NCBI RefSeq assembly: GCF_002001105.1
Contig: NZ_MUNP01000074.1
Location: 1-40,164 of the forward strand
Direction: 5' to 3'
Length of the DNA stretch: 40,164 nt
From: Rhodanobacter sp. C06
GTDB taxonomy: Bacteria; Pseudomonadota; Gammaproteobacteria; Xanthomonadales; Rhodanobacteraceae
The first letter of the stretch is position 1. Every line of letters starts with the position of its first letter. This document shows positions 4,477-27,775 of the stretch, one piece after another. Made by a program: the position numbers and the translations under genes. The notes under the pieces are model-generated. The model saw only the letters and a program-made list of their open reading frames with translations, was not told where the DNA came from and did no database searches.

Positions 4477-6498
4477 ATGCATTCACTCATCAAGTTCCTG
4501 GCTTTCGCCATGGTCGTGGCCATGGTGTTCCGCGCGGAGGCAGTGTCGGCGAGCCAGGCGGGTGCCGCCACGCCATATCGGGATCTGTTCGATTTCCAAG
4601 GTACGCCAAGTACGCCGACGGACCGTGGCTTCAACATCTTCTTCGACGCCGGTGCGTGGCAGGGCTACAGCCTGCCGAAGGTCGGCGACGGCACGACGGG
4701 GTTCAGCGGCCCCTTCGTGCACAGCCTGGGTACGGGGCAGTGGACGGGTGTGCGCTTCGCCGCGGTCGTCTTGCGCGATATCGGTGGAAAGGGCGACATC
4801 GTGCTGCAGGAAGTGGCGAGCCATGCCGTGCCGGGCGCGCTGGAGCGCGAGTTCGCTGCACCGGGCCTCACGGTGCGGCAGACGCTGTTCTTTGCCGACT
4901 CCTGGCATGCGCTGGTGCGCATCGAACTGCGGTCCACCACGGCACGCGAACTCGACGTGGCGATTGGCGGGCACGTCATGCCCGTGCCGGGGAGCCGCCT
5001 CGCCGGCGACGGCGGCGCGGTGACACGGAATTTCGTGAATATGCCTACGCAGCTCGACACGCAGCTGCACGCCGATGGCATCAACGCCGATCGGATCGAA
5101 GTGTCGGGCGACGACTACCGGATCGCGCTGGACCGTCCGCTGCATCTGGCGCCCGGCAAACCCGCCACGCTTTACGTCGTGCAGACCCTGCGCCACGACA
5201 CGCGCACCGCCACGCCACCTGTGCTCGACTATGCTGGAGCATGGGCGGCCAACCGCGTGCGCTGGGCCGGTTATCTGAAGTCGGTGGAAGCCAGCCATCT
5301 GCCTGGCCTGCCCGACGCCATCGCGCGGCGCGTGGCCGCGAAGGCCGTGGTCACCCTGATCGGCAACTGGCGTGCGGCACGCGGCGACCTGCGCCACGAC
5401 GGCGTGGTGCCCTCCTATTCCAATCCGGACTTCAACGGCTTCTGGGCCTGGGATTCATGGAAGCACGCGGCCGCGCTGGCCTGGTTTGCGCCGGATCTGG
5501 CGCGCGACCAGATCCGCGCGATGTTCGACTACCAGGCTGCGGACGGCATGGTGCCCGACTGCGTGTTCCTCGACCGTGCCGACAACAACTGGCGCGACAG
5601 CAAGCCGCCGCTGGCGACTTGGGCGGTATGGCAGGTATACCGCGCCTCCGGTGATCGGGCCTTCCTGGCCGAGATGTACGACAAGCTGGTGCGCTACCAC
5701 CGCTGGTGGTACGCGGCGCGCGACCACGACCACGACGGCCTCGCCGAATACGGTGCCACCGACGGCACCGCGATCGCGGCGAAGTGGGAAAGCGGCATGG
5801 ACAACGCCGTGCGCTTCGACGGCATCGCGATGCTGAAGAACGGCGAACATGCGTGGTCGATGGACCAGGCCTCGGTCGACCTCAATGCCTACCTCTACGG
5901 CGAGGACGTCGATCTCGCGCGGATCGCGGCGCTGCTCGGCAAGCCGAAGGACGAGGCGACGTGGCGGCAGCGGGCCATCGCGTTGAAGACGGCGATCCAG
6001 TCGCGGATGTACGACGCCGAGGCAGGCTGGTTCTTCGACATCAAGCTCGGCAAGCCGGAATTCGTGCGCGTGTACGGCTCGGAAGGCTGGGCGCCGCTGT
6101 GGGCCGGCGTGGCGACGGCCGCGCAGGCCGCCGCGGTCGAGAAGACGATGATGGACCCGCGCAAGTTCGCCACGTCCATGCCGTTTCCGACGCTGGCCGC
6201 AGACGATCCGCGCTTCTCGCCGGTGAAGGGCTACTGGCGCGGACCGGTGTGGCTGGATCAGTCGCTGTTCGGCGTCGAGGCCCTGTGGCGCTACGGTTAC
6301 CGCGCGCAAGCCGATGCAATGGCACGCCGGCTGGTGCTGGACGCGCAGGGGCTGGCGGCCGGCCAGGCGACGTTCCGCGAGAACTACGACCCGCTGACCG
6401 GGCAGGGCGAGCAGTCGCAGAACTTCAGTTGGTCCGCGGCGAGCTACCTGCTGCTCTTGCGGATGGATGCCAGTGCACCGGAGCCGCGCCAGCCTTGA
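4477..6498 (+). CDS. Secreted GH63 (YgjK-like) glycoside hydrolase
   Basis: 673 residues; ATG at 4477 with GGAG ten bases before. Residues 1–26 are a signal peptide. An N-terminal beta-sandwich region (about 35–250) precedes an (alpha/alpha)6 barrel. The barrel shows GFWAWDSWKHAAAL (321–334), WESGMDN with D442 as the likely general acid, and RENYDPLTGQGEQSQNFSW with E635 as the likely base, matching E. coli YgjK and other GH63/MGH1-like enzymes. Such enzymes release glucose or related sugars from alpha-linked oligosaccharides; the true substrate cannot be read here. It is divergent from the polymerase gene and followed by a mutarotase gene 93 bp downstream, consistent with a periplasmic sugar-release step. 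Confidence 0.8.
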   Translation: MHSLIKFLAFAMVVAMVFRAEAVSASQAGAATPYRDLFDFQGTPSTPTDRGFNIFFDAGAWQGYSLPKVGDGTTGFSGPFVHSLGTGQWTGVRFAAVVLRDIGGKGDIVLQEVASHAVPGALEREFAAPGLTVRQTLFFADSWHALVRIELRSTTARELDVAIGGHVMPVPGSRLAGDGGAVTRNFVNMPTQLDTQLHADGINADRIEVSGDDYRIALDRPLHLAPGKPATLYVVQTLRHDTRTATPPVLDYAGAWAANRVRWAGYLKSVEASHLPGLPDAIARRVAAKAVVTLIGNWRAARGDLRHDGVVPSYSNPDFNGFWAWDSWKHAAALAWFAPDLARDQIRAMFDYQAADGMVPDCVFLDRADNNWRDSKPPLATWAVWQVYRASGDRAFLAEMYDKLVRYHRWWYAARDHDHDGLAEYGATDGTAIAAKWESGMDNAVRFDGIAMLKNGEHAWSMDQASVDLNAYLYGEDVDLARIAALLGKPKDEATWRQRAIALKTAIQSRMYDAEAGWFFDIKLGKPEFVRVYGSEGWAPLWAGVATAAQAAAVEKTMMDPRKFATSMPFPTLAADDPRFSPVKGYWRGPVWLDQSLFGVEALWRYGYRAQADAMARRLVLDAQGLAAGQATFRENYDPLTGQGEQSQNFSWSAASYLLLLRMDASAPEPRQP

Positions 6499-6526
6499 TG
6501 GCCTGCATGCGCGGATAGGCTTGCCA

Positions 6527-6562
6527 AATGTCTTATTATATGTTGATGTTCAGACTTGCCTG
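6527..6562. promoter_or_regulatory. AT-rich promoter region before galM with TCAGACT motif
   Basis: A short AT-rich island (TTATTATATG, 6533–6542) lies in an otherwise GC-rich gap. It is followed by TCAGACT at 6550–6556, the same seven bases found in the stronger palindrome before the receptor gene (9201–9207). It probably holds the galM promoter; a shared operator is only a guess because the palindrome is weak here. Confidence 0.3.
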
Positions 6563-6591
6563 ATGCCATTCCGTGAAGCGGGGACTGCACG

Positions 6592-7740
6592 ATGAACAAG
6601 CACCTGATCGCCTGCGCCATCTCCCTGCCGTTGCTGGCCGCGCCCTGGTTGTGCGCGGCGGCCGACGCCAGCCGCGCCGTCTTCGGCACGATGCCCGACG
6701 GGCGCAAAGTGGAAGTGGTGACGCTGGACGATGGCCATGGCTTCACCGCCCGCGTGATCAGTCTCGGCGCCAGCCTGCAATCGCTCATGCTGCCGGATCG
6801 CGACGGCAAGCTGGCGGACGTGGTGCTGGCCTATCCCGATCTACACGACTACCTGGCCAAGCCGCAGTACTTCGGCGCCACGGTGGGGCGCTTCGCCAAC
6901 CGCATCGCGGGGGGCCGCTTCACGCTGGACGGCAAGAGCTACCAGCTCACCCTCAACGACGGGCCGAACTCGCTGCACGGCGGCGCGAAGGGCTTCGACA
7001 AGGTGGTGTGGCAGGTGATGAAGGTGGTGAAGTCGCCCGAGCCCAGCGTGACGTTGCGCTACGTCAGCCCCGACGGCGACCAGGGCTATCCCGGCACGCT
7101 CACTGCCACCGCCACCTACACGCTCAAGGCCGGCCACGAGCTGGACATCGACTACAGCGCCACCACCGACAAGCCCACCATCGTCAACCTCAGCAACCAC
7201 GCCTACTGGAACCTGGGCGGGGAAGGCTCGGTCAGCGTGTACGACGACATCCTCACCATCCCGGGCGACAGCATCACGCCGGTGGACGACACGCTGATTC
7301 CCACCGGCGAGTTCCGCACCGTGGCCGGCACCGACTACGACTTCCGCCGGGGCAAGCCGATCGGCCGCGACATCCGCGACGGCAAGGAGCAGCAGTTGCT
7401 GCGCGGCCACGGCTACGACATGAACTGGGTGATCAGTCGTACCGAGGCCTCCGCGCCGCGGCTGGTAGCGAAAGTGGAAGACCCGCGCAGCGGTCGCGTG
7501 CTGACGCTTTACTCCGCGCAACCGGGCCTGCAGTTCTATTCGGGCAATTTCCTCGACGGCACCAGCGTGGGCAAGTCGGGCCGCATCTACCGTCAGGGCG
7601 ACGCCTTCGTGCTTGAGCCGCAGAGGTTCCCGGACACGCCGAACCATCCCGACTTCGGCTCGGCACGGCTGGCGCCGGGGCAGACCTACCACAACCACAT
7701 CGTCTACCGCTTCTCGGTGGACGGTGGCACGGGCCGCTAG
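6592..7740 (+). CDS. galM: Aldose 1-epimerase (mutarotase), exported
   Basis: 382 residues with an N-terminal signal peptide (1–25), so it should act in the periplasm. It interconverts the alpha and beta anomers of galactose or other aldoses. Conserved galactose-mutarotase motifs are present: GATVGRFANRIAGG (95–108), NSLHGG with H129, SPDGDQGYPG (159–168), NLSNHAYWNL with H203 as the likely catalytic acid, and the late LEPQ glutamate E342 as the likely base. Secreted mutarotases of this length are usual in polysaccharide loci of xanthomonads and Bacteroidetes. Its place beside a galactose-oxidation operon suggests galactose as substrate, since sugar dehydrogenases use the beta anomer. Confidence 0.92.
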   Translation: MNKHLIACAISLPLLAAPWLCAAADASRAVFGTMPDGRKVEVVTLDDGHGFTARVISLGASLQSLMLPDRDGKLADVVLAYPDLHDYLAKPQYFGATVGRFANRIAGGRFTLDGKSYQLTLNDGPNSLHGGAKGFDKVVWQVMKVVKSPEPSVTLRYVSPDGDQGYPGTLTATATYTLKAGHELDIDYSATTDKPTIVNLSNHAYWNLGGEGSVSVYDDILTIPGDSITPVDDTLIPTGEFRTVAGTDYDFRRGKPIGRDIRDGKEQQLLRGHGYDMNWVISRTEASAPRLVAKVEDPRSGRVLTLYSAQPGLQFYSGNFLDGTSVGKSGRIYRQGDAFVLEPQRFPDTPNHPDFGSARLAPGQTYHNHIVYRFSVDGGTGR

Positions 7741-7849
7741 CCAGGCATCACGCCAGCGCGAGTCTGCGTCGCGCCCATTCCGGCTCGCCGTGTGGCGGCG
7801 GGCATATCCGGCGGCAGGGGCCGCCGAAGTAAGTCGTCACGGAGGTTCC

Positions 7850-9007
7850 ATGAAATACGCATTGTCCTGTCTGCTGCTTGCGGTGATGGTGGCCGCCACG
7901 GCGGCACCGGCGCACGCCGACGCGCCGGCGCGCTGGCCGAAGGCGCAGGCCCAGGCCTGGTACGCGAAACAGCCCTGGCCGGTGGGCAGCAACTACATTC
8001 CCTCGAACGCCATCAACGAGCTGGAGATGTGGCAGGCGGCCACGTTCGACCCGAAGCGCATCGACCAGGAATTGGGCTGGGCCGAGTCGCTGGGCATGAC
8101 CACCATGCGCGTGTTCCTGCACGACCTGCTCTGGAAGCAGGACGCGACCGGCTTCAAGCAGCGTATCAACACCTTCCTCGACATCGCGGCGAAGCACCAC
8201 ATCAAGCCGATCTTCGTGCTGTTCGATTCATGCTGGGATCCGGAGCCGAAGCTGGGTCCGCAGCACCCGCCGATTCCCGGTGTGCACAACTCCGGCTGGG
8301 TGCAATCGCCGGGCGTGGCGATGGACGATCGCAGCCAGTACCCGCGCTTCGAGCTGTACGTGAAGGACATCGTGGGCAGCTTCGCCAGCGACAACCGCAT
8401 CCTCGCCTGGGACGTGTGGAACGAGCCGGACAATCCGGGCGGTGGCAATTACGACGCGCGTGAGCCGAAGGACAAGTTCGAGCGCGTGGCCGAGCTGCTG
8501 CCGCAGGTGTTTGCCTGGGCGCGCAGCGAGCATCCGACCCAACCGCTCACCAGTGGCTTGTGGCATGACGCCGACTGGAGCCCGTCGGCGCACCTCAACG
8601 CGGTGGAGCGCACTCAGGTCGAACAGTCCGACATCATCAGCTTCCACGACTACGGCTGGCCGGAAGACTTCAAGCGCCGCGTGGCCCAGCTCAAGCTCTA
8701 CGGCCGGCCGCTGATCTGCACCGAGTACATGGCGCGCGGTGCCGGCTCCACCATCGACGGCGTGTTGCCGCTGGGCAAGAAGCTGGACGTGGGCATGGTC
8801 AACTGGGGCTTCGTGCTCGGCAAGACGCAGACCAACCTGCCGTGGGATTCCTGGCAGCGCCCCTACACGCTGCAGCCGCCCACGATCTGGTTCCACGATC
8901 TCTTGCACGAGGACGGCACACCGTATCGCGAGCGCGAGGCGCAGATCATTCGAGCGCTCAGCCACTCGCCGAAGGGCGTGGTGCCTGCGGCGGCGCTGAG
9001 TCCCTAA
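7850..9007 (+). CDS. Secreted clan GH-A glycoside hydrolase (GH5/cellulase-like)
   Basis: 385 residues; ATG at 7850 with GGAGG five bases ahead. Residues 1–23 are a signal peptide. A TIM-barrel hydrolase follows, with MRVFLHDLLW (86–95), the acid/base motif WDVWNEPDNP (E192) and the nucleophile strand LICTEYMARG (E292). The 100-residue spacing between the two glutamates is typical of clan GH-A retaining enzymes. The family is best described as GH5-like or 'cellulase family'; the specific substrate, such as a beta-galactan, mannan or xylan, is not decided by these motifs. It lies 109 bp after galM and ends just before a strong terminator, so galM and this gene may form one transcript. Confidence 0.75.
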   Translation: MKYALSCLLLAVMVAATAAPAHADAPARWPKAQAQAWYAKQPWPVGSNYIPSNAINELEMWQAATFDPKRIDQELGWAESLGMTTMRVFLHDLLWKQDATGFKQRINTFLDIAAKHHIKPIFVLFDSCWDPEPKLGPQHPPIPGVHNSGWVQSPGVAMDDRSQYPRFELYVKDIVGSFASDNRILAWDVWNEPDNPGGGNYDAREPKDKFERVAELLPQVFAWARSEHPTQPLTSGLWHDADWSPSAHLNAVERTQVEQSDIISFHDYGWPEDFKRRVAQLKLYGRPLICTEYMARGAGSTIDGVLPLGKKLDVGMVNWGFVLGKTQTNLPWDSWQRPYTLQPPTIWFHDLLHEDGTPYREREAQIIRALSHSPKGVVPAAALSP

Positions 9008-9058
9008 AACCTGCGCAAAAGAGCCGGCTTCGCCCGCTCCGACAGGTTCTGCTCGAGG

Positions 9059-9096
9059 AAAACGAAAACGCCCGGCCAGCCGGGCGTTTTCGTTTT
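9059..9096. terminator. Strong bidirectional rho-independent terminator
   Basis: AAAACGAAAACGCCCGGC and its exact complement GCCGGGCGTTTTCGTTTT form an almost uninterrupted 17–18-bp stem with a tiny loop, with A-run and T-run at the two ends. It ends the transcript of the preceding hydrolase. Confidence 0.85.
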
Positions 9097-9179
9097 GAAA
9101 GGGCCGTAGGAAAACGCCGATCCACGACGATGCGCTGCAGCATGACAAGTCGGTGCAAGTGATGCATCGTTAGTCATAT

Positions 9180-9188
9180 AGTACGACA
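9180..9188. promoter_or_regulatory. Candidate GntR/FadR-type operator, upstream copy
   Basis: AGTACGACA (complement TGTCGTACT) fits the TGTn3ACa pattern of FadR-subfamily operators and resembles TTTGTAATACATAAC before the regulator gene: both read TTTGT..TAC on the minus strand. It lies about 190 bp before the receptor start. Prediction only. Confidence 0.4.
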
Positions 9189-9196
9189 AATAGATT

Positions 9197-9209
9197 ATTG
9201 TCAGACTAT
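9197..9209. promoter_or_regulatory. Candidate GntR/FadR-type operator, promoter-proximal copy
   Basis: ATTGTCAGACTAT is a 13-base near-palindrome (arms ATTGTC and GACTAT about a central A) with the T.GTC.GAC.A layout typical of FadR-type GntR regulators. It is in the AT-rich island before the receptor gene and 21 bp (centre to centre) from the other copy, about two helical turns. Confidence 0.45.
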
Positions 9210-9376
9210 TGAAAACATGCCGGGCGGTGCGCGCAGTGGAGGGCGGATCTCCTTCAGGCAGGCGGCTCCATCGAGGCTGGTCAGTCACCGTGAACGACGG
9301 GATGAGCCAGCGGGCATCGACATTCCACTCATCGCTGCTGTTAAGCACGATCTAACGAACCTTGGGGAGAAAACGT

Positions 9377-12178
9377 ATGAAGCATCCGATCCTGGTCTCA
9401 TGCACGGCAACGCTGCTGGCGAGCGCCATCGGTGCCTGCTTTTTCCCGGCGCATGCCGCCGATGCGTTACCGGGCAATGCGACGGCTGCCGCACAGGACG
9501 CGACGAGCCAGACGCCCGCTGCCAAGACCAAGGAGGACAAGAACAAGCAGCGTGAGGAGGCGCAGAAGAATGCCGTCAACCTGTCCACGATCACCGTGAC
9601 CCCGTTGCGCAGCAGCCTGGAAAGCGCGCAGACGATCAAGCAGAACTCGCGCATGGTGGTCGATTCCATCGTGGCCGAGGACATCGGCAAGCTGCCGGAC
9701 AACAGCGTCGCCGACGCCATGCAGCGCATCACCGGCGTGCAGGTCGCGCCGGATTTCCAAGGGGAGACGGCTTCCGTGGTCATCCGTGGCTTGCCAAACG
9801 TCGCCACCACGCTGAACGGGCGTGAGATCTTCAGCGGTGTAGGCCGTGCTTTTGCGTTCCAGAATCTGCCGGCCACGGCAGTCAAAGACGTCAAGGTCTA
9901 CAAGACCAGCGAAGCGAGCCTGATCGATGGCGGCATCGCTGGCCTCGTCGACATGGAGTTGTATCGTCCGTTCGACTTCGCCGGCAGCAAGGTAGCCGGC
10001 ACCTTCACCAAGACGTACAGCCACTTCGGGGGGCACGTCGATCCCACCGGAAGTTTCCTGCTCAGCAATCGCTGGAGCACGGGCATCGGCGAAATCGGCG
10101 CCTTGGTCAACGTTGGCTATAGCCGCCAGCACTACGACTACAACGCGGTGTGGGGGGATTTCCCGAAGGTATTGACCGATGGCAGCGGCAGCCCGATCCG
10201 CACCGGTAGCGGCAACCTGATCGCGGCACCGAACGGTTTCGGTGCCGACTACAACATCGGCGATCGCACGCGCGAGGAGTTCAACTACGCGTTGCAGTGG
10301 AAGCCGAACGATTCCACCGAGGTCTACCTGGAAGGCATCTACGACTGGGATTCCGACAGATACAACCAGCCGTTCTATTTCTCGTTCCCGGTCGGTTCGG
10401 TCACGCCTACTCAGTACACGGTGGGCAACAACTGCTACGCCAACCAGTTGACCGGCTCGCCGTACCAGGGACAGACCATCTGCGATGCCACCAGCGGCAC
10501 GTGGACGGGCAACACTTACGCGGCCACCAGCACGCAGGCGCATACGGAATGGGGGCACGACATCCAGAATTCGCTGGGTGTGAAGTGGCATGGCGATCGC
10601 CTGAGCCTATCCAGCGACTTGTCGTTCAACACGACGTCGTTTGAAGAGCAGACCTTCATCGTGGACACGTTCCTGAAGGCGCCGATCACCACCGTGTGGA
10701 CAGGCACCGCGGGCAACCAGCAGAACTGGGGCCTGGGCGGCAATCCGCAAACCAATCCGGCCAACTACTACCTCAACGGCCTGTTCCAGGACTGGAACGA
10801 ACAGCGTGCACAGCAGTGGGCATGGCGCGCCGACGGCAACTTCGACATCAACGGCGATTTCTTCCAGTATCTCGATTTCGGCGCGCGCTATGCAGACCAC
10901 AAGGCCGAGTACCACGGCAGCTACGACATCTCCACGCCACCACCGGGCGGCACCGGTGCGATCTCCCTGAATCCGAATCCGGCCAACCAGGTCATCGCTC
11001 GCTTCCCGAACGGCTACTTCTGCAGCGAGCCGACCACGTCCGCGCTCCCGGTTACATGGCTAAGTGGCTGCTACAACTTCCTGACCAGCAATGCCGATGC
11101 GATCCGCGCTCTCTACGGCCTGCCCGCCGGGCCTGCGGCGGAGAATCCCGGGCGCTACTACCAAATCGAAGAGAAATCCTCGGCAGGCTATGCCCAGTTG
11201 GGCTATGGCAACACACTGTTGGGCCTGTCGTTCGATGGCTTGCTTGGCATGCGCGTGGAACGCATGCAGCGCCACTTGAATGCATATTCCTATGACGCAT
11301 CGACCAACATCTACACGCCGCTGTCCGATTCCACAAGCGCGCCCGTCTACCTGCCAAACTTCAGCTTCAACTTGCATTTCACGGATCAACTGCAACTGCG
11401 CCTGGTGGCGGCCAAGACGCTCACCTACCCCGGCTTTGGAGCGTTGAACCCATCGATTTCGCTGAATCCGGGCACCATCAATCGTGCAGGTGCCGCCAGC
11501 AGCGGCAATCCCGACCTCAAGCCGACACGTTCGAACAATTACGACGCATCGCTGGAGTGGTACTTCGGGCCGGCCAGCTACATCAGCGGTGGCCTCTTCT
11601 ATCGCGACATCAACGGGTACATCCAGAACTACACCACGAATGTCATCATCGGCGGCCAGCCGTACCAGTTGAATTCGCCGCAAAGCGCCGGTTCCGGTCA
11701 TCTCGATGGCGCTGAGTTCGCCTACCAGCAGTTCTTCGATTTCCTGCCGGGCGTTCTCAGCGGGCTGGGTGCGCAGTTCAACTACACCTACATCGAGGGT
11801 TCGACGCGCTCGCCGCAGTATCTCGGTGGCCCGATGACACAGTCGCCGCTGCAGAACGTTTCCAAGAACAACTACAACGCGGTGCTGATGTACGAGCGCT
11901 ACAACTGGTCGGCGCGACTGGCCTACAACTTCCGCAGCCGCTACATCGACGGCTTCAACCAGCCGACCGTGGCCGGCATTTACGACGAGGTCAAGCCGGC
12001 GAACCAGGTGGATTTCTCGTTGGGCTATGACATCAACAAGAACGTCACGGTGGTGTTCAACGCCACGAACATTCTAGGTGCCAACCTCCACCAGTACTGG
12101 GGTAGCGGCGATACGCGGCCACGCGACATCCGCTATCAGGATCGCACCGTCGGCTTGGGTGTGCGCGTCAAGATGTAG
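9377..12178 (+). CDS. TonB-dependent outer-membrane receptor (oligosaccharide type)
   Basis: 933 residues; ATG at 9377 with GGGGAGA ahead. A signal peptide (1–27, ending in FPAHAA) is followed by a Thr/Lys-rich linker, a plug domain (about 72–200) with AEDIGKLPDNSVADAMQRITGVQV and VVIRGLPNVATTLNGREIFSG, then a 22-strand barrel that ends in the typical aromatic/hydrophobic tail (TVGLGVRVKM). The AEDIGKLPD signature is common in the large receptor class of Caulobacter and xanthomonads that imports plant oligosaccharides. It lacks an N-terminal STN signalling domain, so it is a transporter rather than a transducer. Flanking hydrolases and the galactose operon suggest uptake of galactose- or arabinose-containing oligosaccharides. 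A leader of about 165 bp follows the candidate operators. Confidence 0.9.
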   Translation: MKHPILVSCTATLLASAIGACFFPAHAADALPGNATAAAQDATSQTPAAKTKEDKNKQREEAQKNAVNLSTITVTPLRSSLESAQTIKQNSRMVVDSIVAEDIGKLPDNSVADAMQRITGVQVAPDFQGETASVVIRGLPNVATTLNGREIFSGVGRAFAFQNLPATAVKDVKVYKTSEASLIDGGIAGLVDMELYRPFDFAGSKVAGTFTKTYSHFGGHVDPTGSFLLSNRWSTGIGEIGALVNVGYSRQHYDYNAVWGDFPKVLTDGSGSPIRTGSGNLIAAPNGFGADYNIGDRTREEFNYALQWKPNDSTEVYLEGIYDWDSDRYNQPFYFSFPVGSVTPTQYTVGNNCYANQLTGSPYQGQTICDATSGTWTGNTYAATSTQAHTEWGHDIQNSLGVKWHGDRLSLSSDLSFNTTSFEEQTFIVDTFLKAPITTVWTGTAGNQQNWGLGGNPQTNPANYYLNGLFQDWNEQRAQQWAWRADGNFDINGDFFQYLDFGARYADHKAEYHGSYDISTPPPGGTGAISLNPNPANQVIARFPNGYFCSEPTTSALPVTWLSGCYNFLTSNADAIRALYGLPAGPAAENPGRYYQIEEKSSAGYAQLGYGNTLLGLSFDGLLGMRVERMQRHLNAYSYDASTNIYTPLSDSTSAPVYLPNFSFNLHFTDQLQLRLVAAKTLTYPGFGALNPSISLNPGTINRAGAASSGNPDLKPTRSNNYDASLEWYFGPASYISGGLFYRDINGYIQNYTTNVIIGGQPYQLNSPQSAGSGHLDGAEFAYQQFFDFLPGVLSGLGAQFNYTYIEGSTRSPQYLGGPMTQSPLQNVSKNNYNAVLMYERYNWSARLAYNFRSRYIDGFNQPTVAGIYDEVKPANQVDFSLGYDINKNVTVVFNATNILGANLHQYWGSGDTRPRDIRYQDRTVGLGVRVKM

Positions 12179-12185
12179 GCACCTA

Positions 12186-13984: not shown

Positions 13985-15072
13985 CGCGGATGCGGAGGGG
14001 CCTGGACTTCGTCCTGCCTCGACGGCACCGCCAGCGGCACGTCCGCCTTCACCGGCACGCCGAAGTCGGGTGTGCCGTCCGCGCGCCAGTGCATCTGCTG
14101 CATGCGCGGCGAGCGGCGCGGGCCGCACTTCCAGCCGGGACCGCCGTTGGCGTGGTAGATGATCCACGTCTGCTTGCCGTCCGGCGACTTGAAGAAGCCA
14201 TTGTGGCCTGGCGCGTAGACACCGTTGGCCGGCGACTGGGCAAACACCGGCTGCGGCGACTTGTGCCACGCCGCGGGATCGAGTGGATCGGCATCCGGCG
14301 CGGCGCTGAGCAGGCCCAGCGCGTAATGGTCGGACCAGCAGGCGCTGGCGGAGTAGCTGAGGAACAGCTTGCCGGTGGGGCCTTCGAGGAACTCCGGCCC
14401 TTCCAGGATCTTCCGTCCGCCCTGCATCTCCCATGCATAGGTGGGCTGGGCGATGTCCGCTTGCGGCGTGCCCAGCGTCCACGGGTTCGTCATCGGCGCG
14501 ATCACCAGGTCGCTGTGGTCGCCGACGTAGGCGGAATAGACGAAGTACAGCTTGTCGCGCAATTGGAACACGGTGCCGTCGATGCCGTTGTGGTCGGTCT
14601 TCAGCATGCCTCGCGAAATCCATTGCCCCTGCGTGGGATCGGGCGAGGCGTTCTCCAGCACGTAGAGGTGGCGGTGCGTGTCGTCGTCGTGCGCCTTGTC
14701 GGCGGCGGTGTAGTACAGGTACCACTTGCCGTCGAGGAAGTGCAGCTCCGGCGCCCATACCGCGGCGGAGCCGGGCCCGCTGGCTGGCGCGCGCCAGACC
14801 ACGGTGGCCGGCGCCGCGGCGAGACGGCCCAGGTCGCGCGTCTTCCACAATGCGATGCGGTCGCCCAGTGTGTTGGTGTAATAGTAGAAGCCGTCGTGCT
14901 GCGCCACCCACGGGTCCGGCCCCGTGGGCAGCAGCGGGTTGCGGAAGGTCTCGCTGGCGGCGGCGAGATTCGCCGCCACGGCAATCGCAAGCAGTGATGC
15001 CGCCAGCACGACCCGTCGCCGCCAACGCGGACGACGAGCTTGGGTGTTCGTGCGGATCGGCGTCGAGTGCAC
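13981..15072 (-). CDS. Secreted GH43 glycoside hydrolase (arabinanase/arabinofuranosidase-like)
   Basis: 363 residues from a GTG start at 15072, four bases after the symporter stop, so the two are co-transcribed. An Arg-rich n-region and hydrophobic core (20–38) form the signal peptide. The five-bladed propeller has the three GH43 catalytic acids: D53 in GPDPW (base), D165 in NGIDGTVF (pKa modulator) and E224 in EGPEF (acid). Other family marks are WAPELHFLDGKWYLYYTA (106–123) and APGHNGFFKSPDG. GH43 enzymes are inverting and remove alpha-L-arabinofuranosyl, beta-xylosyl or beta-1,3-galactosyl units; this one looks most like arabinofuranosidase/arabinanase members. Its place at the end of a galactose operon suggests trimming of arabinose side chains from a galactan. 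Confidence 0.85.
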   Translation of the reverse strand: MHSTPIRTNTQARRPRWRRRVVLAASLLAIAVAANLAAASETFRNPLLPTGPDPWVAQHDGFYYYTNTLGDRIALWKTRDLGRLAAAPATVVWRAPASGPGSAAVWAPELHFLDGKWYLYYTAADKAHDDDTHRHLYVLENASPDPTQGQWISRGMLKTDHNGIDGTVFQLRDKLYFVYSAYVGDHSDLVIAPMTNPWTLGTPQADIAQPTYAWEMQGGRKILEGPEFLEGPTGKLFLSYSASACWSDHYALGLLSAAPDADPLDPAAWHKSPQPVFAQSPANGVYAPGHNGFFKSPDGKQTWIIYHANGGPGWKCGPRRSPRMQQMHWRADGTPDFGVPVKADVPLAVPSRQDEVQAPPHPR

Positions 15073-15076
15073 GGTC

Positions 15077-16468
15077 TTACTGCCCGATCCGCCGCAGCGG
15101 CTGGCCCGCCATCAGCTTGCGCTCGATCTGTTCCAGCGTGACGCCCTTGGTCTCCGGCACCAGCCAGATGGTGAACGCGATGAATACCACGTTGAATGCG
15201 GCGTACAGCCAGAACGTCTCGGCCTGGCCGATGCCGTTGAGCAGCGGCAGGAACGAGAGGCCTACCAGCCAGTTCGCCACCCAGTTGGTGAAGGTGGAGC
15301 AGCCGATGCCGAAGTCGCGGCCCTTCAGCGGCTGGATTTCCGAGCACAGCGTCCAGATCAGCGGGCCGGCCGACATCGCGAAGCCGACGATGAACACCAG
15401 CAGCATGACCACGGTGAAGGTCTGTTCGCCGTGGCTGTGGATGCCCAGGTGCATCATCGTGCCGACCACGCCGAGGCCGATCGCCATCACCACGAAGCCG
15501 ATGTACAGGATCGGCTTGCGGCCCAGCTTGTCGACCAGGCCGATCGCGATGAAGGTGGCCAGCACGTTGACCAGGCCCACTATCGCGGTGAACCACATCT
15601 GCGATTCGGTGTTGTAGCCCATGTCCTGGAAGATGCGCGGCGCGTAGTACATCACCACGTTCATGCCGGTGAGCTGCTGCATCACCTGCAGCAGCACGCC
15701 CAGGCCCACCGAGCGGCGGAAGTTGCGGTTCTGCTGGAAGAGATGCCAACCGCGCTGCGGCGTCTTCAGCTGTTCGCTGATCTCGCCGATTTCCTTGGCG
15801 ATGGCGCCGTTGCTGCCGAGCAGCTTGCGCAGCACCTGCTCGGCCTCCGGCTGGCGGTCCTTCATCATCAGCCAGCGCGGACTTTCCGGCAGGAAGGCCA
15901 CGCCGAACAGGAACAGCGCGCCGGGGATCGCGATCACGCCCAGCATCCAGCGCCAGTTGCCCGAGTAGCTGAAGGCGGTGTCGGAGAGGAAGGCGACCAG
16001 GATGCCGATGGTGATCATCAGCTGGTACAGCGAGATCATCGCGCCGCGGATCGATTCCGGCGCGATCTCGGCCAGGTACAGCGGTGCGGTGAAGCTGGCG
16101 AGGCCGATCGCGAGGCCGAGCACGAGGCGGCCCACGATCAGCACGTGCGGCGTCCAGGCCAGGCCGCACAACACCGAGCCGCCCACGAACAGCACGGCAC
16201 CGAGGATCAGCGTGCGTTTGCGACCCAGCTGGCTGGACAGCCAGCCCGCCGCCAGCGCGCCCAGTGCGGCGCCCAGCATCATGATGCTGACGATCCAGCC
16301 GAGCATGTCGTCGCCGATGCCGAAGTCCTTCTGCAGGAATTGCTGCGCGCCGGAGATCACGCCGATGTCGAGGCCGAACATCAGGCCGGCCAGCGCGGCG
16401 AGGATGCAGGTGAAGACGGCGGTGGCCTTGCCGTGCGTGGCGGCGGGTGGTGCGGTGGTGGCGCTCAT
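15077..16468 (-). CDS. Sugar:proton symporter (GalP/AraE-like, MFS sugar porter)
   Basis: 463 residues, ATG at 16468 with GGGGAG six bases ahead. Twelve membrane helices with sugar-porter hallmarks: GFDIGVISGA-like FGLDIGVISGA in helix 1, GRKRTL after helix 2, RLVLGLAIGLAS and LAEIAPESIRGA in helices 4–5, PESPRWLMMK before the central loop, QQLTGMNVVMYYAPRIF in helix 7, DKLGRKP, and VPETKG after helix 12. This is the family of E. coli GalP, AraE and XylE, importing monosaccharides across the inner membrane with protons. Placed between the galactose-oxidation genes and a GH43 gene, it probably brings in galactose or arabinose. A repeat-filled gap of 195 bp separates it from the lactonase gene, so it may also have its own promoter. 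Confidence 0.92.
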   Translation of the reverse strand: MSATTAPPAATHGKATAVFTCILAALAGLMFGLDIGVISGAQQFLQKDFGIGDDMLGWIVSIMMLGAALGALAAGWLSSQLGRKRTLILGAVLFVGGSVLCGLAWTPHVLIVGRLVLGLAIGLASFTAPLYLAEIAPESIRGAMISLYQLMITIGILVAFLSDTAFSYSGNWRWMLGVIAIPGALFLFGVAFLPESPRWLMMKDRQPEAEQVLRKLLGSNGAIAKEIGEISEQLKTPQRGWHLFQQNRNFRRSVGLGVLLQVMQQLTGMNVVMYYAPRIFQDMGYNTESQMWFTAIVGLVNVLATFIAIGLVDKLGRKPILYIGFVVMAIGLGVVGTMMHLGIHSHGEQTFTVVMLLVFIVGFAMSAGPLIWTLCSEIQPLKGRDFGIGCSTFTNWVANWLVGLSFLPLLNGIGQAETFWLYAAFNVVFIAFTIWLVPETKGVTLEQIERKLMAGQPLRRIGQ

Positions 16469-16520
16469 GCGTTACTCCCCGTGGAATGGCGTGCGACTTC
16501 GGCTGGAAGCTTTCCCGGAT

Positions 16521-16625
16521 TCGTTCGCCCTGAGCGTAGCGCCAAAGGCGCGAAGTCGAAGGGTCCGAAGTCCGGGAGGCATATGTGTTTCGACTTCGCG
16601 GAACTGCGTTCCGCTACGCTCAACA
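16521..16625. repeat. Pair of inverted REP-like repeats (GAGCGTAGC…GCGAAGTCGAA type)
   Basis: TTCGCCCTGAGCGTAGC … GCGAAGTCGAAGGG (16523–16563) is followed by an inverted copy, TTCGACTTCGCG … GCTACGCTCA (16589–16622). Each unit has its own small hairpin, and the pair can fold into one long stem. This motif is a widespread intergenic repeat in gammaproteobacteria. It splits the galactose operon between the lactonase and symporter genes. Confidence 0.65.
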
Positions 16626-16663
16626 CCAACGGCTCCCGATCATGCGTCATCTTTCGACGACGC

Positions 16664-17578
16664 TCACGGCGTGTGGCCCGGAGGCGGCAAGCCGGCAAAA
16701 CGTGGTTCGGACAGGCCGCGCACATCGACGTGCGTGCCGAACAGCGCGCCGGCCAGTGGCTCGCGCGCCAGTGTGGCAGCGTCGAGACCGTCGCGGGCGC
16801 TGGTGACGTAGAGCGCGTCCAGCGCGTCGCCGCCGAAGGCGGGGCGGGTGGGCTGGCTGGCGGCCGTGGTCAGGATGCGGTCGATACTGCCGTCGGCGCG
16901 GTAGCGCACCACGCGGCCCAGCCCCCATTGTGCATTCCACAGGCCGCCATCGGCATCCACGCAGGAGCCGTCCGGTTCGCCAGTGCTGTTGCGCAGGTCG
17001 GCGAACAGGCGCGAGGGTCCGAGTGCGTCGCCGTAGGCGCAGCAGCGGATCGTGCGCGTCAGCGAGTCGCAGTAGTACAGCGTGCCGCCGTCGGGGCTGA
17101 AGGCGAGGCTGTTGCTGATCGCCACGCCTTCCAGCGGCAGCTTCTCCAGTTTGAGGTCGGCGTCCAGGCGCCAGAAGCCGCCGATGGCTTGCTTTGCACC
17201 ACCATCGGCAGGCTCGTGCAGGGTGCCGAACACGAAGCGGCCCTGGCGGTCGCAGGCGCCGTCGTTGCAACGCGTGGGCAGGCCGGGCTCGACTTCGCAG
17301 ATCGTGTGTAGCGCGCCGTCGGCGAGGCGGAAGAACGCCAGCTTTGATGCCAGCGCCAGCAGCAGCCAGCCATCCGCCGCGCACAGCGCGAACGAAGCGA
17401 GGCGTTCGGGCAATCGCCACTGTTGCGTCTCGCCGCTGGCGGGCACGTGCCGCCACAGCGTGGCGGCGTGGATGTCGGTCCAGTACAGCGCCCGCGCGCG
17501 TTCGCACCAGACGATGCCTTCACCCAGCACGTTGCCCGCTTCCACGACGGCCTGCATGGGAGCGGACGGCGCGTTCAT
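16664..17578 (-). CDS. SMP-30/gluconolactonase family lactonase, probable galactonolactonase
   Basis: 304 residues; ATG at 17578 overlaps the stop of the dehydrogenase gene (ATGA), showing translational coupling. The six-bladed SMP-30 propeller has its divalent-metal ligands: E20 in LGEGIVW, N156 in AISNSLAFSPDG and D203 in GEPDGSCVDADGGLW, plus RCNDGACDRQGRF (103–115) near the substrate site. The family hydrolyses sugar lactones. Between a sugar dehydrogenase and galactonate dehydratase its natural job is opening D-galactono-lactone to D-galactonate. Family relatives also open arabino- and gluconolactone, so substrate rests on context. Confidence 0.85.
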   Translation of the reverse strand: MNAPSAPMQAVVEAGNVLGEGIVWCERARALYWTDIHAATLWRHVPASGETQQWRLPERLASFALCAADGWLLLALASKLAFFRLADGALHTICEVEPGLPTRCNDGACDRQGRFVFGTLHEPADGGAKQAIGGFWRLDADLKLEKLPLEGVAISNSLAFSPDGGTLYYCDSLTRTIRCCAYGDALGPSRLFADLRNSTGEPDGSCVDADGGLWNAQWGLGRVVRYRADGSIDRILTTAASQPTRPAFGGDALDALYVTSARDGLDAATLAREPLAGALFGTHVDVRGLSEPRFAGLPPPGHTP

Positions 17579-18333
17579 ACCCAGCCACCGTCGACGATGA
17601 AATCCTGGCCGGTGCACATGCCGCTGTCATCGGCGGCGAGGAACAGCGCCATGCGCGCCAGGTCCTCGGCCATCAGGTAGCCGGGCAGGCATTGCACACG
17701 CGCGATCTCGGCCTCGCCCTCGGCGTCCAGCCACAGCGCACGCTGTTTTTCGGTGATCACCCAGCCGGGCACCAGCGCGTTGATGCGGATGTGCTGCTGG
17801 CCCAGCTCGCGCGCCATGCCGTTGACGAAGCCGTGCACCGCGGCCTTGGCCATTGCGTAGAGCGGATAGCCGGCGTTCTTCTTCATCCAGCCGGTGGAGC
17901 CGAGGCAGATGATGGAGCCACCGCCGAGCCGCTGCATGTCGGGAATCACCGCGCGGGTGGCGAACACCTGGTGGCGCAGGTTCACCGCCACGTTGCGCTC
18001 GAATGCGGCGGCGTCCACGTCGGCCAGCGTGTGGCGCACGTCGTTGGCGGCGTTGTTGACCAGCACCGCGACGGGGCCGATGTGCGTACGCGCGCTGGCG
18101 ATGGCGCCATGCAGCGCGTCGAGATCGGTGACGTCGCAGCGCAGGAACACGGGGACGTGCGCCACATCCTGCAGCGTGGCCAGCAGCGCCCGTGCGCCGG
18201 CCTCGTCCACGTCGACGAAGGCCACCTTCGCGCCTTGCCGCGCGAAGTGTTCGACGAAGGCCGCGCCGATGCCGGTGGCGCCGCCCGTGATCAGCACACT
18301 GCGATCGCGCAGGCTGGGGTAGCTGGCGTACAT
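17575..18333 (-). CDS. SDR-family sugar dehydrogenase, probable D-galactose 1-dehydrogenase
   Basis: 252 residues. Rossmann motif TGGATGIGAAF (16–26), acidic D41 at the end of strand 2 (AFVDVD), which favours NAD+, the NNAA stretch (93–96), and the catalytic S146, Y159, K163 (YAMAK). The C-terminal DGGWV end is typical. The enzyme should oxidise an aldose at C1 to its lactone. Flanked by a lactonase and by galactonate dehydratase, D-galactose is the expected substrate; L-arabinose or fucose dehydrogenases of the same family cannot be excluded. ATG at 18333 lies five bases after the dgoD stop; an in-frame GTG at 18342 would overlap that stop and is a possible alternative. Confidence 0.82.
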   Translation of the reverse strand: MYASYPSLRDRSVLITGGATGIGAAFVEHFARQGAKVAFVDVDEAGARALLATLQDVAHVPVFLRCDVTDLDALHGAIASARTHIGPVAVLVNNAANDVRHTLADVDAAAFERNVAVNLRHQVFATRAVIPDMQRLGGGSIICLGSTGWMKKNAGYPLYAMAKAAVHGFVNGMARELGQQHIRINALVPGWVITEKQRALWLDAEGEAEIARVQCLPGYLMAEDLARMALFLAADDSGMCTGQDFIVDGGWV

Positions 18334-18338
18334 GGCGC

Positions 18339-19487
18339 TCACCACTCCGCCACGCTGCCGTCGTCGTGACGCCAGATCGGGTTGTGCCACTGATGGCCCA
18401 CCTTGGCGCGCTCGGCCACGTAAGCCTCGTTCACCTCGATGCCCAGGCCCGGGCCCTTCGGCATGGCCACGTAACCGTCGGCGTAGGCGAACACGCTGCG
18501 GTCGGTGATGTAGTCGAGCAGGTCGTTGCCGGCGTTGTAGTGGATGCCCAGGCTCTGTTCCTGGATGAAGGCGTTGTGGCACACCGCGTCCAGTTGCAGG
18601 TTCGCGGCCAGCGCGATCGGGCCGAGCGGGCAGTGCAGCGCCAGCGCCACGTCGTAGGCTTCGGCCATCGCCGCAATCTTGCGCGTCTCGGTGATGCCGC
18701 CGGCATGCGAGGGATCGGGCTGGATGATGTCCACGCCGCCGGTCTGCAGCACGCGCTTGAAGTCGTAGCGCGAATACAGCCGCTCGCCCAGCGCGATCGG
18801 CGCGGGCGAGATCGCGGCCAGCTCGGGCAGGCATTCCAGGTGCTCGGACAGCACGGGCTCCTCGATGAACATCAGCTTGTACGGCGCCAGTTCGCGCATC
18901 AGCACCTTGGCCATCGGCTTGTGCACGCGGCCGTGGAAATCCAGCCCGATGCCGATGTCCGGGCCCACCGCGTCGCGGATCGCCTGCACGTTTTCCAGCA
19001 CGCGCTCGACCTTGGCGTGCGTGTCGACGTATTGCATCTCCTCGGTGGCGTTCATCTTCACCGCGGTGAAGCCGCGCGACACCGCGTCCTGCGCGGCACG
19101 CGCGGTGTCGGCCGGGCGGTCGCCCCCGATCCACGAGTACACGCGGATGCGCCCGCGCACCGGGCCACCCAGCAATTCGTATACCGGCCGGCCCAAGTCC
19201 TTGCCCTTGATGTCCCACAGCGCCTGGTCGATGCCGGCGATGGCGCTCATCAGGATCGGGCCACCGCGATAGAAACCGCCGCGGTAGAGCACGTTCCAGT
19301 GATCCTCGATATGGCGCGGGTCCTTGCCGACCAGGTAGCTCGACAGTTCCTCGACGGCCGCCGCCACGGTATGCGCCCGCCCCTCGACCACCGGCTCGCC
19401 CCAGCCGCTGATGCCCGCATCGGTGTCGATGCGCAGGAACAGCCAGCGGGGAGGGACCTGGTAGGTGGTGATTGCCGTGATCTTCAT
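18339..19487 (-). CDS. dgoD: D-galactonate dehydratase
   Basis: 382 residues, the same length as E. coli DgoD, and clearly its homologue across the whole chain (start [22 protein letters not shown], end [11 protein letters not shown]). It is an enolase-superfamily enzyme that dehydrates D-galactonate to 2-keto-3-deoxy-D-galactonate. The magnesium ligands D183, E209 and E235, and the catalytic H185 and H285, fall at the E. coli positions within LDFHGR, IEEPV, LGERLY and [12 protein letters not shown] at 19487 overlaps the dgoA stop by four bases (ATGA), so it is translationally coupled. Confidence 0.97.
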
Positions 19488-20128
19488 GCGTGCGTATCCA
19501 ATGCGTGGGTATCCAACGCCTGCCAGGCCTGCGCGAAGGCGCGGGCGCGCGAGGTGGTGTCGTCCAGGCTGCGACCGGGTGTGTAAAGCGCCGAGCCGAT
19601 ACCGAAGCCAGCGGCGCCGGCAGCGACCCACGGCGCCATGTTGTCGGGGGTGATGCCACCGACCGGCAGCACCGGCACCTCGCGCGGCAGTACCGCACGC
19701 CAGGCCTTGAGCACGGCCGGTGTGGCTTGTTCGGCGGGGAACAGCTTCAGCGCGTCGGCGCCCGCGTCCAGCGCGGCGAAGGCCTCGGTGGGCGTGGCCA
19801 CGCCGGGCACGCAGACCAGGCCGGCGGCCTTGGCAGCGCGGATCACCGTGGTGTCGGCGTGCGGCATCACGATCAGCCGGCCGCCCGCGGTTGCCACCGC
19901 GTCCACGTTGGCGGGCGTCATCACCGTGCCCGCGCCGACCAGCACCTCATCGCCCAGCGCCGCAGCGAGCCTGGCGATGCTGTCGATCGGCCGCGGCGAA
20001 TTGAGCGGCACTTCCAGCATGCGGAAGCCGGCCTCGGCGATGGCGCGGCCGGTGGCCACCGCCTCGTCCGGCGTGAGGCCGCGCAGGATCGCCACCAGCG
20101 GCAGGGGATGGAGCCAGGGAGTCAGCAT
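19484..20128 (-). CDS. dgoA: 2-dehydro-3-deoxy-6-phosphogalactonate aldolase
   Basis: 214 residues of the KDPG/KDPGal class I aldolase fold. The catalytic glutamate E39 lies in MLEVPLNSP and the Schiff-base lysine K128 in [17 protein letters not shown], the phosphate-site loop [11 protein letters not shown] and GFGIGSALY complete the family pattern. It splits 2-keto-3-deoxy-6-phosphogalactonate to pyruvate and glyceraldehyde-3-phosphate. The start at 20128 overlaps the kinase gene by seven bases. The C terminus ends [11 protein letters not shown], made by a 15-bp tandem duplication (19487–19516, one mismatch) directly against the dgoD start; relatives normally end without it. Confidence 0.94.
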
Positions 20129-21069
20129 GCGGGAGTGGTCTCGGAAACGGATGGAATTGGGCCGGGTGGAACCAGGCCGGCCTGCGTCGCCAGCAGCCAC
20201 AGGCCGCGGGCGGCGGCGTCGGCGATGGCCGGCGGCAGCTCGATGTCGAACAGTGCGGCGGCGCGGCGGTAGCGCGCGCACAGCGCGGCCTCGCCGATCA
20301 GCTGCAACGGCGTATCGCGGCGGGCGAGGCCGTCGGCCAGCGCGGTGCGGAATTCCTCGCCGATCAGCAGGCCGGAGAGATAGTCGGGCACCGACGCGGG
20401 CGCCAGCACGCCGTCCAGCATCAGCGCACGGGTGGAGAACAGCCGACTCAGGGCGCCGGCCGCGCCGCTGTCGCGGGCCGCAGCGGCGCCACGTTCAAAG
20501 GCTTCGATGTCGTCGACGGTCGCGGCGCCGGTGGCGCCGAGGATCGAATGCTGCCGCAGCGCGGCGAACAGCTCGCCGGTCATCAGGGTGCGGAAACTGC
20601 GGACCGCGCCGTCCCGCACCACGGTCCACTTGCTGTGCGTGCCGGGCTGGATGAAGGTGCAGGCGTCGGCGAGGGCGGGCCGCAGCGCCAGCGCGCCGAG
20701 CAGTTGGGTTTCCTCGCCGCGCATCACGTCGGGGCCGTGCGGATCGCGCAGGCCGGGCACCAGGTGCACGTCCCGGCCGTCGGCGGCGCGCAGGTGGCCC
20801 AGTGCGCGACCGAGCTGCACCGCGTCCGCGGGCAGGTCGAGGTAGGGCATCTCCCGCCAGCCGCCGCGGCTGCCGACCATGCCGCAGGCCAGTCGCGGCA
20901 GCGCCGGCCAGCCGGTGGTGATCCCGGCCAGCGCGGCGTCGTAGCCGCCGTCCGGCAGCTGGCGAATGCCCCAGGGACGCGCGCGCGTCTCCACGAGGGC
21001 GCCCGCGCCGTCGAAGCGGAAGGCGCGCAGGCTGCTGGTGCCCCAATCGAGTCCGATCAGTCCGTGCAT
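20122..21069 (-). CDS. dgoK: 2-dehydro-3-deoxygalactonokinase
   Basis: 315 residues. The DgoK family opening GLDWGTSSLRAF (6–17) is the phosphate-binding loop of an actin-like (ASKHA) kinase. It is followed by CGMVGSRGGWREMPYLDLPA, VPGLRD, DVMRGEETQLLGAL, QPGTHSKW and MTGELFAAL, all family blocks. It phosphorylates 2-keto-3-deoxy-D-galactonate with ATP, feeding the aldolase encoded next to it. The start lies seven bases after the regulator stop, and its end overlaps dgoA, placing it second in the operon. Confidence 0.95.
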   Translation of the reverse strand: MHGLIGLDWGTSSLRAFRFDGAGALVETRARPWGIRQLPDGGYDAALAGITTGWPALPRLACGMVGSRGGWREMPYLDLPADAVQLGRALGHLRAADGRDVHLVPGLRDPHGPDVMRGEETQLLGALALRPALADACTFIQPGTHSKWTVVRDGAVRSFRTLMTGELFAALRQHSILGATGAATVDDIEAFERGAAAARDSGAAGALSRLFSTRALMLDGVLAPASVPDYLSGLLIGEEFRTALADGLARRDTPLQLIGEAALCARYRRAAALFDIELPPAIADAAARGLWLLATQAGLVPPGPIPSVSETTPAC

Positions 21070-21076
21070 TGCCGGC

Positions 21077-21784
21077 TCAGGCCTTCCGCGTGTTGCGGCG
21101 GATGTTGCTGCGCGAGTCGGCGATCATCTTCTGCATCGTCTGGCGCGCCACTTCCGGCTGGCGGCGGCGGATCGCATCGAGCACCTTCTTGTGGTGTGGC
21201 AACGAGTAGCTGAAGTTGCCGGCGATGCTCGCCGAGAGCTGGAAATACCCGCCCAGCGCGGTCTCGATCACCGAGAACAGCGAGGTCATCAGTTCGTTGT
21301 TGGTGGCGCGCAGCACGGCCTCGTGGAAGGCCAGATCTGCCGTGGACCAGGCCTCCAGGTCGGTTGCGGCGGCCATCGCCGCGTAGGCGGTCTCGATGCG
21401 CGCCAGCTGTCCGGCGTCGCGGCGGCGGGCGGCGGCGGCGGCGGCGGCGGGCTCGATCACCTCGCGCATCTCCACCAGCTTCTCGACGAAATCCTCGGTG
21501 GGCATCGAGGCGCAGCGCCAGGCCAGCACGTCCGCGTCGAGCTGGTTCCAGTGGATGATGTCGCGCACACGGGTGCCGGTCTTCTGGCGCGACTCGATCA
21601 GGCCCTTGGCGGACAGCACCTTCATCGCCTCGCGCAGCGCGGTGCGGCTGACTTTCATGCGCTCGGCCAAGAGCTCCTCGCGCGGCAGGTTCGCGCCGGG
21701 GGCGATCTCGCCGCCGACGATCAGCCGGCCCAGTTCCTGGACCACCTGGCCATGCAGGTTGCGCACGATGACGGGCTTTACCAT
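21077..21784 (-). CDS. GntR-family transcriptional regulator with FCD domain (DgoR-like)
   Basis: 235 residues; ATG at 21784 with AGGAG seven bases ahead. Residues about 8–75 are the winged helix of GntR regulators (LIVGGEIAPGANLPREELLAERMKVSRTALREAMKVLSAKGL region). Residues 95–225 are an FCD ligand domain with metal-site residues D150, H154 and H198. FadR-subfamily regulators of this type control sugar-acid pathways, E. coli DgoR being the closest functional parallel. As first gene of the galactonate operon it is very likely its repressor, relieved by galactonate or a related intermediate. A seven-fold GGC repeat encodes part of the alanine run 113–119. Confidence 0.88.
   Translation of the reverse strand: MVKPVIVRNLHGQVVQELGRLIVGGEIAPGANLPREELLAERMKVSRTALREAMKVLSAKGLIESRQKTGTRVRDIIHWNQLDADVLAWRCASMPTEDFVEKLVEMREVIEPAAAAAAARRRDAGQLARIETAYAAMAAATDLEAWSTADLAFHEAVLRATNNELMTSLFSVIETALGGYFQLSASIAGNFSYSLPHHKKVLDAIRRRQPEVARQTMQKMIADSRSNIRRNTRKA
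21428..21448. repeat. (GGC)7 trinucleotide microsatellite inside the regulator gene
   Basis: Seven uninterrupted GGC units on the plus strand encode alanines at the domain junction of the GntR regulator. Slippage would change the alanine number without breaking the frame. Confidence 0.6.
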
Positions 21785-27768: not shown

Positions 27769-27775
27769 GCGCCAA

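Follow-up and report, generated by a model that had tools for sequence, protein, structure and literature searches.

A putative DgoR-type regulon for oxidative galactose use beside arabinan-active enzymes in Rhodanobacter sp. C06

Which sugar feeds a locus that sets the genes of oxidative galactose catabolism beside enzymes expected to release arabinose, and do the two parts serve one function? The locus lies within a 40,164-nucleotide stretch of the soil bacterium Rhodanobacter sp. C06 (NZ_MUNP01000074.1; herein the window), which is one entire contig of a 4.14-Mb, 82-contig genome. One strand carries a DgoR-like regulator, a galactonate operon, a sugar porter and a glycoside hydrolase (GH) of family GH43, and the other a mutarotase, an orphan clan GH-A protein, a TonB-dependent receptor and a GH93-like enzyme. 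We consider it probable that the locus serves, as a DgoR-type regulon, to grow the cell on galactose drawn from an arabinose-decorated plant galactoside. This reading is built on homology and sequence, namely on enzyme families, gene order, operator-like sites and the failure to find galK or araA, and from these we infer the substrates of the SDR dehydrogenase, the SMP-30 lactonase and the porter, the effector, the order in which the polymer is attacked, the role of the GH-A protein and secretion.

Under this reading, the TonB receptor would bring oligosaccharides into the periplasm, the GH93 and GH43 enzymes would trim alpha-linked arabinose, and galactose would be freed by the orphan GH-A enzyme or by an unlinked beta-galactosidase. 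The mutarotase would equilibrate the anomers of galactose and the MFS porter would import it. In the cytoplasm, the SDR would oxidize galactose to its lactone and the SMP-30 enzyme would convert the lactone to galactonate, which DgoD would dehydrate and DgoK phosphorylate before the aldolase yields pyruvate and glyceraldehyde 3-phosphate. Galactonate would probably free the gntR and receptor promoters of the GntR repressor.

The galactonate core and its sugar

Galactonate dehydratase, KDGal kinase and KDPGal aldolase of the De Ley-Doudoroff pathway are all present by homology: dgoD scores 690.8 bits against PRK14017 (galactonate dehydratase, cut-off 311), dgoA 301.4 bits against PRK09140 (KDPGal aldolase, cut-off 207) and dgoK 291.6 bits against DGOK (PF05035, cut-off 25). 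Identity to the Escherichia coli proteins is 59.7% for DgoD, 50.8% for DgoA, 35.7% for DgoK and 35.8% for DgoR, and DgoD of the window has D183, H185, E209, E235 and H285, which we take to be the residues that bear its role. The linked SDR and SMP-30 genes would supply the galactose dehydrogenase and the lactonase. The SDR (with a YAMAK motif at 159) reaches 304.6 bits with the NCBIfam D-xylose 1-dehydrogenase model, under its cut-off of 400, and matches PDB entries 4lvu (9.5e-106), 7wwx (6.8e-77) and the sulfoquinovose dehydrogenase 9gwu (8.1e-64); the lactonase scores 237.5 bits with PF08450 (SGL) and matches 7plb at 1.3e-37. The first-pass annotation had called the porter a GalP-like symporter: it is indeed a sugar porter by the general model TIGR00879 (441.2 bits, cut-off 237.8) and by Pfam Sugar_tr, but no specific GalP model is among the 25 NCBIfam families listed.

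No galK was found in this genome or in 14 genus mates (one of 41 genomes in all has it), so oxidation is the sole galactose route seen. Thirteen of the 14 genus mates have dgoK, as do 31 of 61 genomes overall, this one included, and the run gntR-dgoK-dgoA-dgoD-SDR-SMP30-MFS is complete and ordered in 16 of 20 stretches fetched from relatives. The remainder are L048 and L056, where the contig ends before the porter (with no GntR match upstream in L056), L061, with no GntR within the stretch, and L060, with diverged dgoK, SMP-30 and dgoD only.

The best evidence that the sugar of this core is galactose comes from relatives in which galactosidases stand beside the same core. Pfam places GH27 and GH36 alpha-galactosidases there in L049, GH42 in L061, and GH35 together with an arabinofuranosidase C-terminal domain in L052; places for GH35 lie inside L049, L051, L052 and L053, L051 carrying the arabinan set as well, and additional GH27 genes are seen by resemblance only in L052, L053 and L060. 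The De Ley-Doudoroff galactose pathway proposed at the first pass finds good support in the homology and order of dgoD, dgoA and dgoK, the DgoR-like regulator and operator, the failure to find galK and the galactosidases of some relatives.

Regulator and operator-like sites

The regulator has a GntR/FadR architecture (FCD 93.5 bits, GntR 63.8) and is homologous to DgoR; no NCBIfam regulator model scores over its cut-off. In the accessible text of PMC7674646, the galactonate pocket of DgoR comprises 11 residues, eight of which we compared. R102, D146, H150 and H195 are the same in all 22 aligned regulators, and this partial conservation makes a galactonate-like effector likely but not certain.

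Our operator model spans 15 bases and was built from 24 gntR-promoter sites of this genome and its relatives, the window's own site included (those from L076 and L077, with scores of only 10-11, are unlikely to be genuine). Its top sites in the window stand at 21831 before gntR (23.6), at 9177 about 200 bp before the receptor gene (16.3) and at 9196, likewise in the receptor promoter (10.9); the top scores of ten simulated sequences of 40 kb were 4.0-12.9. The receptor form, TATAGTANNACAAWT, has a single match with at most one mismatch in the 4.14-Mb genome and the gntR form, TWTGTANKACAAWT, occurs once, both patterns having been picked after the sites had been seen. That the two forms appear only before gntR and the receptor gene suggests that the two promoters belong to one regulon, and motif comparison marks the sites as putative DgoR-type operators. 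The receptor promoter (9177-9210) holds two operator-like words in opposite orientation, an arrangement reminiscent of the repeat pair in the dgo promoter of E. coli.

Applied to a 12-kb E. coli dgo stretch, the model puts its top two positions, 7268 and 7289, in the dgoR promoter; position 7289 is the published IR1 (PMC12288454, accessible part) and 7268 is presumably IR2. Across 29 loci and the window, sites scoring at least 11 are intergenic with one exception in L049, although many of them are training sites; most of the others are found upstream of the receptor gene or GalM or, in L046, L047 and L054, upstream of a secreted protein of 712 aa and a further receptor. With each genome counted once, 12 have a receptor gene that is at least 50% alike, and in 8 of them (the window, L045, L051, L055, L070, L071, L072 and L076) a site of at least 11 precedes it. 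In L073-L075, the gntR site falls between gntR and a divergent GalM gene. When the model is instead built from eight sites that come from beyond the 14 genus mates (one of them from the record Rhodanobacter sp. FW104-R8), the gntR site has the top score (15.8) and the next-best place is the receptor site (12.1). The case for the receptor site is carried by its uniqueness and conservation, because its score alone is not exceptional.

Arabinan enzymes, the fate of arabinose and an orphan clan GH-A protein

Both arabinose-directed enzymes of the locus match exo-acting alpha-L-arabinan enzymes, in keeping with the arabinose side chains that had been read from them. The GH43 protein scores 194.1 bits with PF04616 and is homologous to its best PDB match, 3akf (3.2e-70; titled putative secreted alpha L-arabinofuranosidase II), with D53, D165 and E224 aligned to acids of 3akf; we take these to correspond to the catalytic acids, and 3akf to be exo-1,5 specific. 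The GH93-like protein is homologous to exo-arabinanases by PDB sequence search (3a71 at 1.1e-34, 2ydt at 6e-30), and its label depends on these matches because Pfam gives just BNR_2, at 31.2 bits under a cut-off of 31.4. The mutarotase scores 302.6 bits with Aldose_epim and 306.6 with PRK11055 (cut-off 240), under the galM_Leloir cut-off of 397.65, and the receptor 617.6 bits with TIGR01782 (cut-off 310). Judged by eye, the GH43 protein and the mutarotase are probably secreted.

Several observations weigh against a galactose regulon of this kind. The arabinogalactan target is a weak point and, as in the first-pass annotation, stays a guess: no gene of the locus could be assigned to galactose release, the genome's clear GH35 gene lies on contig C32 and not at the locus, and GH53 (endo-1,4-galactanase) was found in none of 21 genomes, this one included. 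The claim that every step is present holds, by homology, from galactose to pyruvate and triose phosphate, and fails at galactose release, for which no glycosidase was identified in the locus. The best NCBIfam model for the SDR family is a xylose dehydrogenase; in the DgoR pocket, T191 is S and W181, D184 and R224 differ; L073, L074, L075 and L077 (4 of 12 genomes) have no site of at least 11 before the receptor gene; and the receptor-site score of 12.1 falls inside the spread of 60 models with permuted columns (9.5 on average, 13.5 at most). Finally, GH43 and GH93 would release arabinose, yet no route for arabinose was found.

L-arabinose might itself be the main or a second substrate, the SDR and lactonase forming L-arabinonate, which has the C2-C4 configuration of D-galactonate, and DgoD, DgoK and the aldolase acting on C5 analogues, so that one pathway burns both sugars. 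We rate this as improbable, even though the arabinose-releasing relatives of GH43 and GH93 favor it and no separate route for arabinose was found. An isomerase route was rejected, as araA turned up in none of the 15 genus genomes (this one included), in none of 15 further genomes that carry GH-A loci and in one of 41 genomes in all. An arabinonate dehydratase elsewhere in the genome was likewise rejected: the two IlvD/EDD genes resemble IlvD and Edd by their neighbors (one beside an ilvA-like gene, one beside eda- and pgl-like genes), and the enolase superfamily has five matches, namely dgoD, enolase itself, two epimerase-like genes and one that resembles an L-fuconate dehydratase, all these names being read from translations and neighbors rather than from a family search. 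The L-fuconate-dehydratase-like gene of this genome (L002) has an FAH-like neighbor, by resemblance an oxidative L-fucose route. Published enzymes, as described in the accessible parts of their papers, can be permissive: a Herbaspirillum L-arabinose 1-dehydrogenase has a kcat/Km for L-arabinose just 2.9-fold over that for D-galactose (PMC6336799), and Rhizobium leguminosarum enzymes take both sugars or both acids (PMC9795676). Against arabinose stand the C6 acid, which suits DgoK and the KDPGal aldolase, and the galactosidases that adjoin the core in some relatives. Five Rhodanobacter type strains, taken irrespective of locus carriage, are moreover listed as unable to assimilate L-arabinose and as having beta-galactosidase activity in the accessible part of PMC11596576, a paper on two new species of the genus, which speaks against arabinose entering the oxidative path without settling the matter.

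If galactose is the sugar, the GH-A protein is the candidate within the locus for its release. The clan assigned to it at the first pass is supported at the level of fold by a predicted structure (AlphaFold mean pLDDT 86.7, with pLDDT below 50 at 333-343), but PF00150 reaches 20.3 of the 23.5 bits required and no Pfam family passes its cut-off; NCBIfam gives no match, the single PDB sequence match has an E of 0.48, and no family profile over cut-off places the protein in a named clan GH-A family. Foldseek returns GH5_18, GH164 and other mannosidases, with TMq 0.55-0.61 in the top ten and 0.46-0.61 over the 50 matches listed, at 12-18% identity, a fold-level likeness only. E192 and E292 are invariant in all 41 sequences.

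A linkage scan of named genomes with the GH-A family (best 80 loci; more exist) found GalM, GH-A, receptor and GH93 with dgo genes, mostly with GH43 and in several arrangements, in Dyella, Frateuria and further Rhodanobacteraceae and in Lysobacter soli; GH43 was not seen in L076, the 10-kb flanks of L069-L071 include no more than part of the dgo operon, and the second GH-A of Dyella nitratireducens (L078) is isolated. Nine sphingomonad loci (L080, L105, L108, L114, L115, L126, L132, L141 and L144) have dgoK and dgoA near GH-A, six of them with GH43 and seven with GalM. Most acidobacterial loci carry GH-A without the dgo, GH43 and GalM partners; in a sample of 13 loci (a 14th gave no gene call) with 92 proteins (78 scanned, 14 short ones dropped), no glycosidase family exceeded two members among the 25 of 131 families listed, so no consistent acidobacterial partner is seen. 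Over 58 full-length GH-A loci, GH43 and dgoK occur together in 11, GH43 alone in seven, dgoK alone in six and neither in 34 (Fisher p 0.0007); without L069-L078 (48 loci), the counts are 6, 4, 5 and 33 (p 0.005). The corresponding p values for GH93 and dgoK are 0.05 and 1.0. Seven gene pairs were tried and the kinship of loci was ignored.

We put forward only tentatively, as a possibility rather than an expectation, that GH-A founds an unclassified glycosidase family releasing galactose (or galactosyl-arabinose) from arabinose-decorated plant glycans, which would link arabinan trimming to oxidative galactose catabolism in Rhodanobacteraceae and sphingomonads, with arabinose removed but not used.

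That the galactose operon and the arabinan locus are merely two neighboring units without shared function is unlikely: the core's neighbors do vary between close relatives (of the 20 stretches, only L044, L045, L051, L055 and L063, five in all, have GH43 as the next gene after the porter), the strands converge rather than forming a single operon and the receptor site is weak on its own, but GH43 begins 4 nt past the porter gene, and the linkage in Rhodanobacteraceae and Lysobacter soli, the receptor sites in 8 of 12 genomes and the co-occurrence of GH43 and dgoK all speak for a link between the two parts.

Locus layout and known galactonate systems

Every gene named in the first-pass annotation lies where it was placed, from the start of the GH63-like gene at 4477 to that of gntR at 21784 (table 1). 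The start/stop overlaps claimed for most of the operon are real at 3 of 7 junctions; from gntR to GH43, the junctions are +7, -7, -4, +5, -4, +195 and +4 nt, that is, three gaps of 4-7 nt besides the overlaps and one of 195 nt between SMP-30 and the porter.

Table 1. Features of the Rhodanobacter sp. C06 locus, in window coordinates.
Feature	Position	Strand	Basis
GH63/YgjK-like glycosidase; optional neighbor	4477..6498	+	Pfam, PDB
Aldose 1-epimerase (GalM-like mutarotase)	6592..7740	+	Pfam, NCBIfam
Orphan clan GH-A glycosidase	7850..9007	+	predicted fold
Probable DgoR-type operator before TonB receptor gene	9177..9191	+	motif model
TonB-dependent receptor, Xanthomonas/Caulobacter type	9377..12178	+	TIGR01782
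GH93-like exo-1,5-alpha-L-arabinanase	12410..13984	+	PDB sequence matches
GH43 alpha-L-arabinofuranosidase-like; last operon gene	13981..15072	-	PF04616, PDB 3akf
Sugar porter (MFS)	15077..16468	-	TIGR00879
SMP-30 sugar lactone lactonase	16664..17578	-	PF08450
SDR sugar 1-dehydrogenase (XylB-like family)	17575..18333	-	NCBIfam, PDB
D-galactonate dehydratase dgoD	18339..19487	-	PRK14017
KDPGal aldolase dgoA	19484..20128	-	PRK09140
2-keto-3-deoxygalactonate kinase dgoK	20122..21069	-	PF05035
DgoR-type GntR/FadR-family regulator gntR	21077..21784	-	FCD + GntR domains
Putative DgoR-type operator before gntR, TTATGTATTACAAAT	21831..21845	-	motif model

The GH63-like gene, counted at the first pass as a member of the locus, is present as an optional neighbor. 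Its protein scores 263.1 bits with Pfam MGH1-like and 36.9 with YgjK_N, matches the PDB entry for YgjK, 3w7s, at 2.4e-83, and is probably secreted, judging the signal peptide by eye. Among the 20 fetched stretches, the gene occurs in L046, L047, L054 and L055, and only as fragments in L052 (17289-17865), beside the same PolY neighbor, which suggests loss of an optional gene. In the window, the first 6 bases of the gene (4477-4482) are shared with the divergent Y-family polymerase gene when the latter is read in its long form (2953-4482). L046, L047 and L054 show a third arrangement, with GH63-like, receptor-like and permease-like genes (by resemblance), the secreted protein of ~712 aa and DgoR-like sites. 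On the far side of gntR, 24790-30951 holds a second uptake unit of TonB receptor, GH30 and type I phosphodiesterase; we tried this GH30 and its receptor as a beta-1,6-galactanase system and excluded the unit from the locus, because the GH30 protein comes closest to a beta-1,6-glucanase model (311 bits, under a cut-off of 700) and to PDB 5ngk.

One close described relative is the E. coli dgo operon (dgoR-K-A-D-T), which shares the R-K-A-D order, a GntR/FadR-family repressor and the operator core TGTA-N-TACA. The locus of the window has the SDR, lactonase, sugar porter and GH43 genes where E. coli has the galactonate symporter dgoT, and its regulon probably extends to the outer-membrane receptor. 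De Ley-Doudoroff loci of Rhodobacteraceae, Halomonas and Salinivirga likewise combine oxidative galactose or galactonate genes with a transporter and a regulator; an alpha-galactosidase is found in the Rhodobacteraceae loci and a COG3386 lactonase with DgoR in Halomonas. Loci that include a glycosidase, as well as the substitution of unrelated genes, are already described there (PMC5507952). Those loci differ in their ABC, SSS or TTT transporters and, in some, IclR regulators, and the accessible part of that paper makes no mention of arabinan enzymes, a TonB receptor or GH-A. Sphingomonad GH-A loci (such as L080, L105 and L132) share GalM, GH-A, the receptor, dgoK and dgoA, and several have GH43 and GntR; in place of DgoD, MFS and SDR, however, L132 has by Pfam an IlvD/EDD dehydratase, an SSS transporter and an adjacent Gfo/Idh protein. 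Counterparts of these are recognized by resemblance in L080, in L105, where no Gfo/Idh protein was noticed, and in L085, which has no dgoK or dgoA match. A DgoR-type regulon combined with TonB uptake, exo-acting arabinan enzymes and a GH-A family that is still unassigned was not seen in a search of open-access papers. The first-pass annotation knew of no described locus of this exact make-up; the general kind is known, but this version, varied among related bacteria, seems undescribed.

The locus raises the question of why bacteria in which no arabinose route was found should carry arabinan exo-enzymes. It suggests that a galactonate-type operon became a polysaccharide-use system through an added dehydrogenase, lactonase and porter and through exchangeable hydrolases, with a repressor that probably controls the outer-membrane receptor too, and it gives the unassigned GH-A hydrolase family a conserved, testable context.

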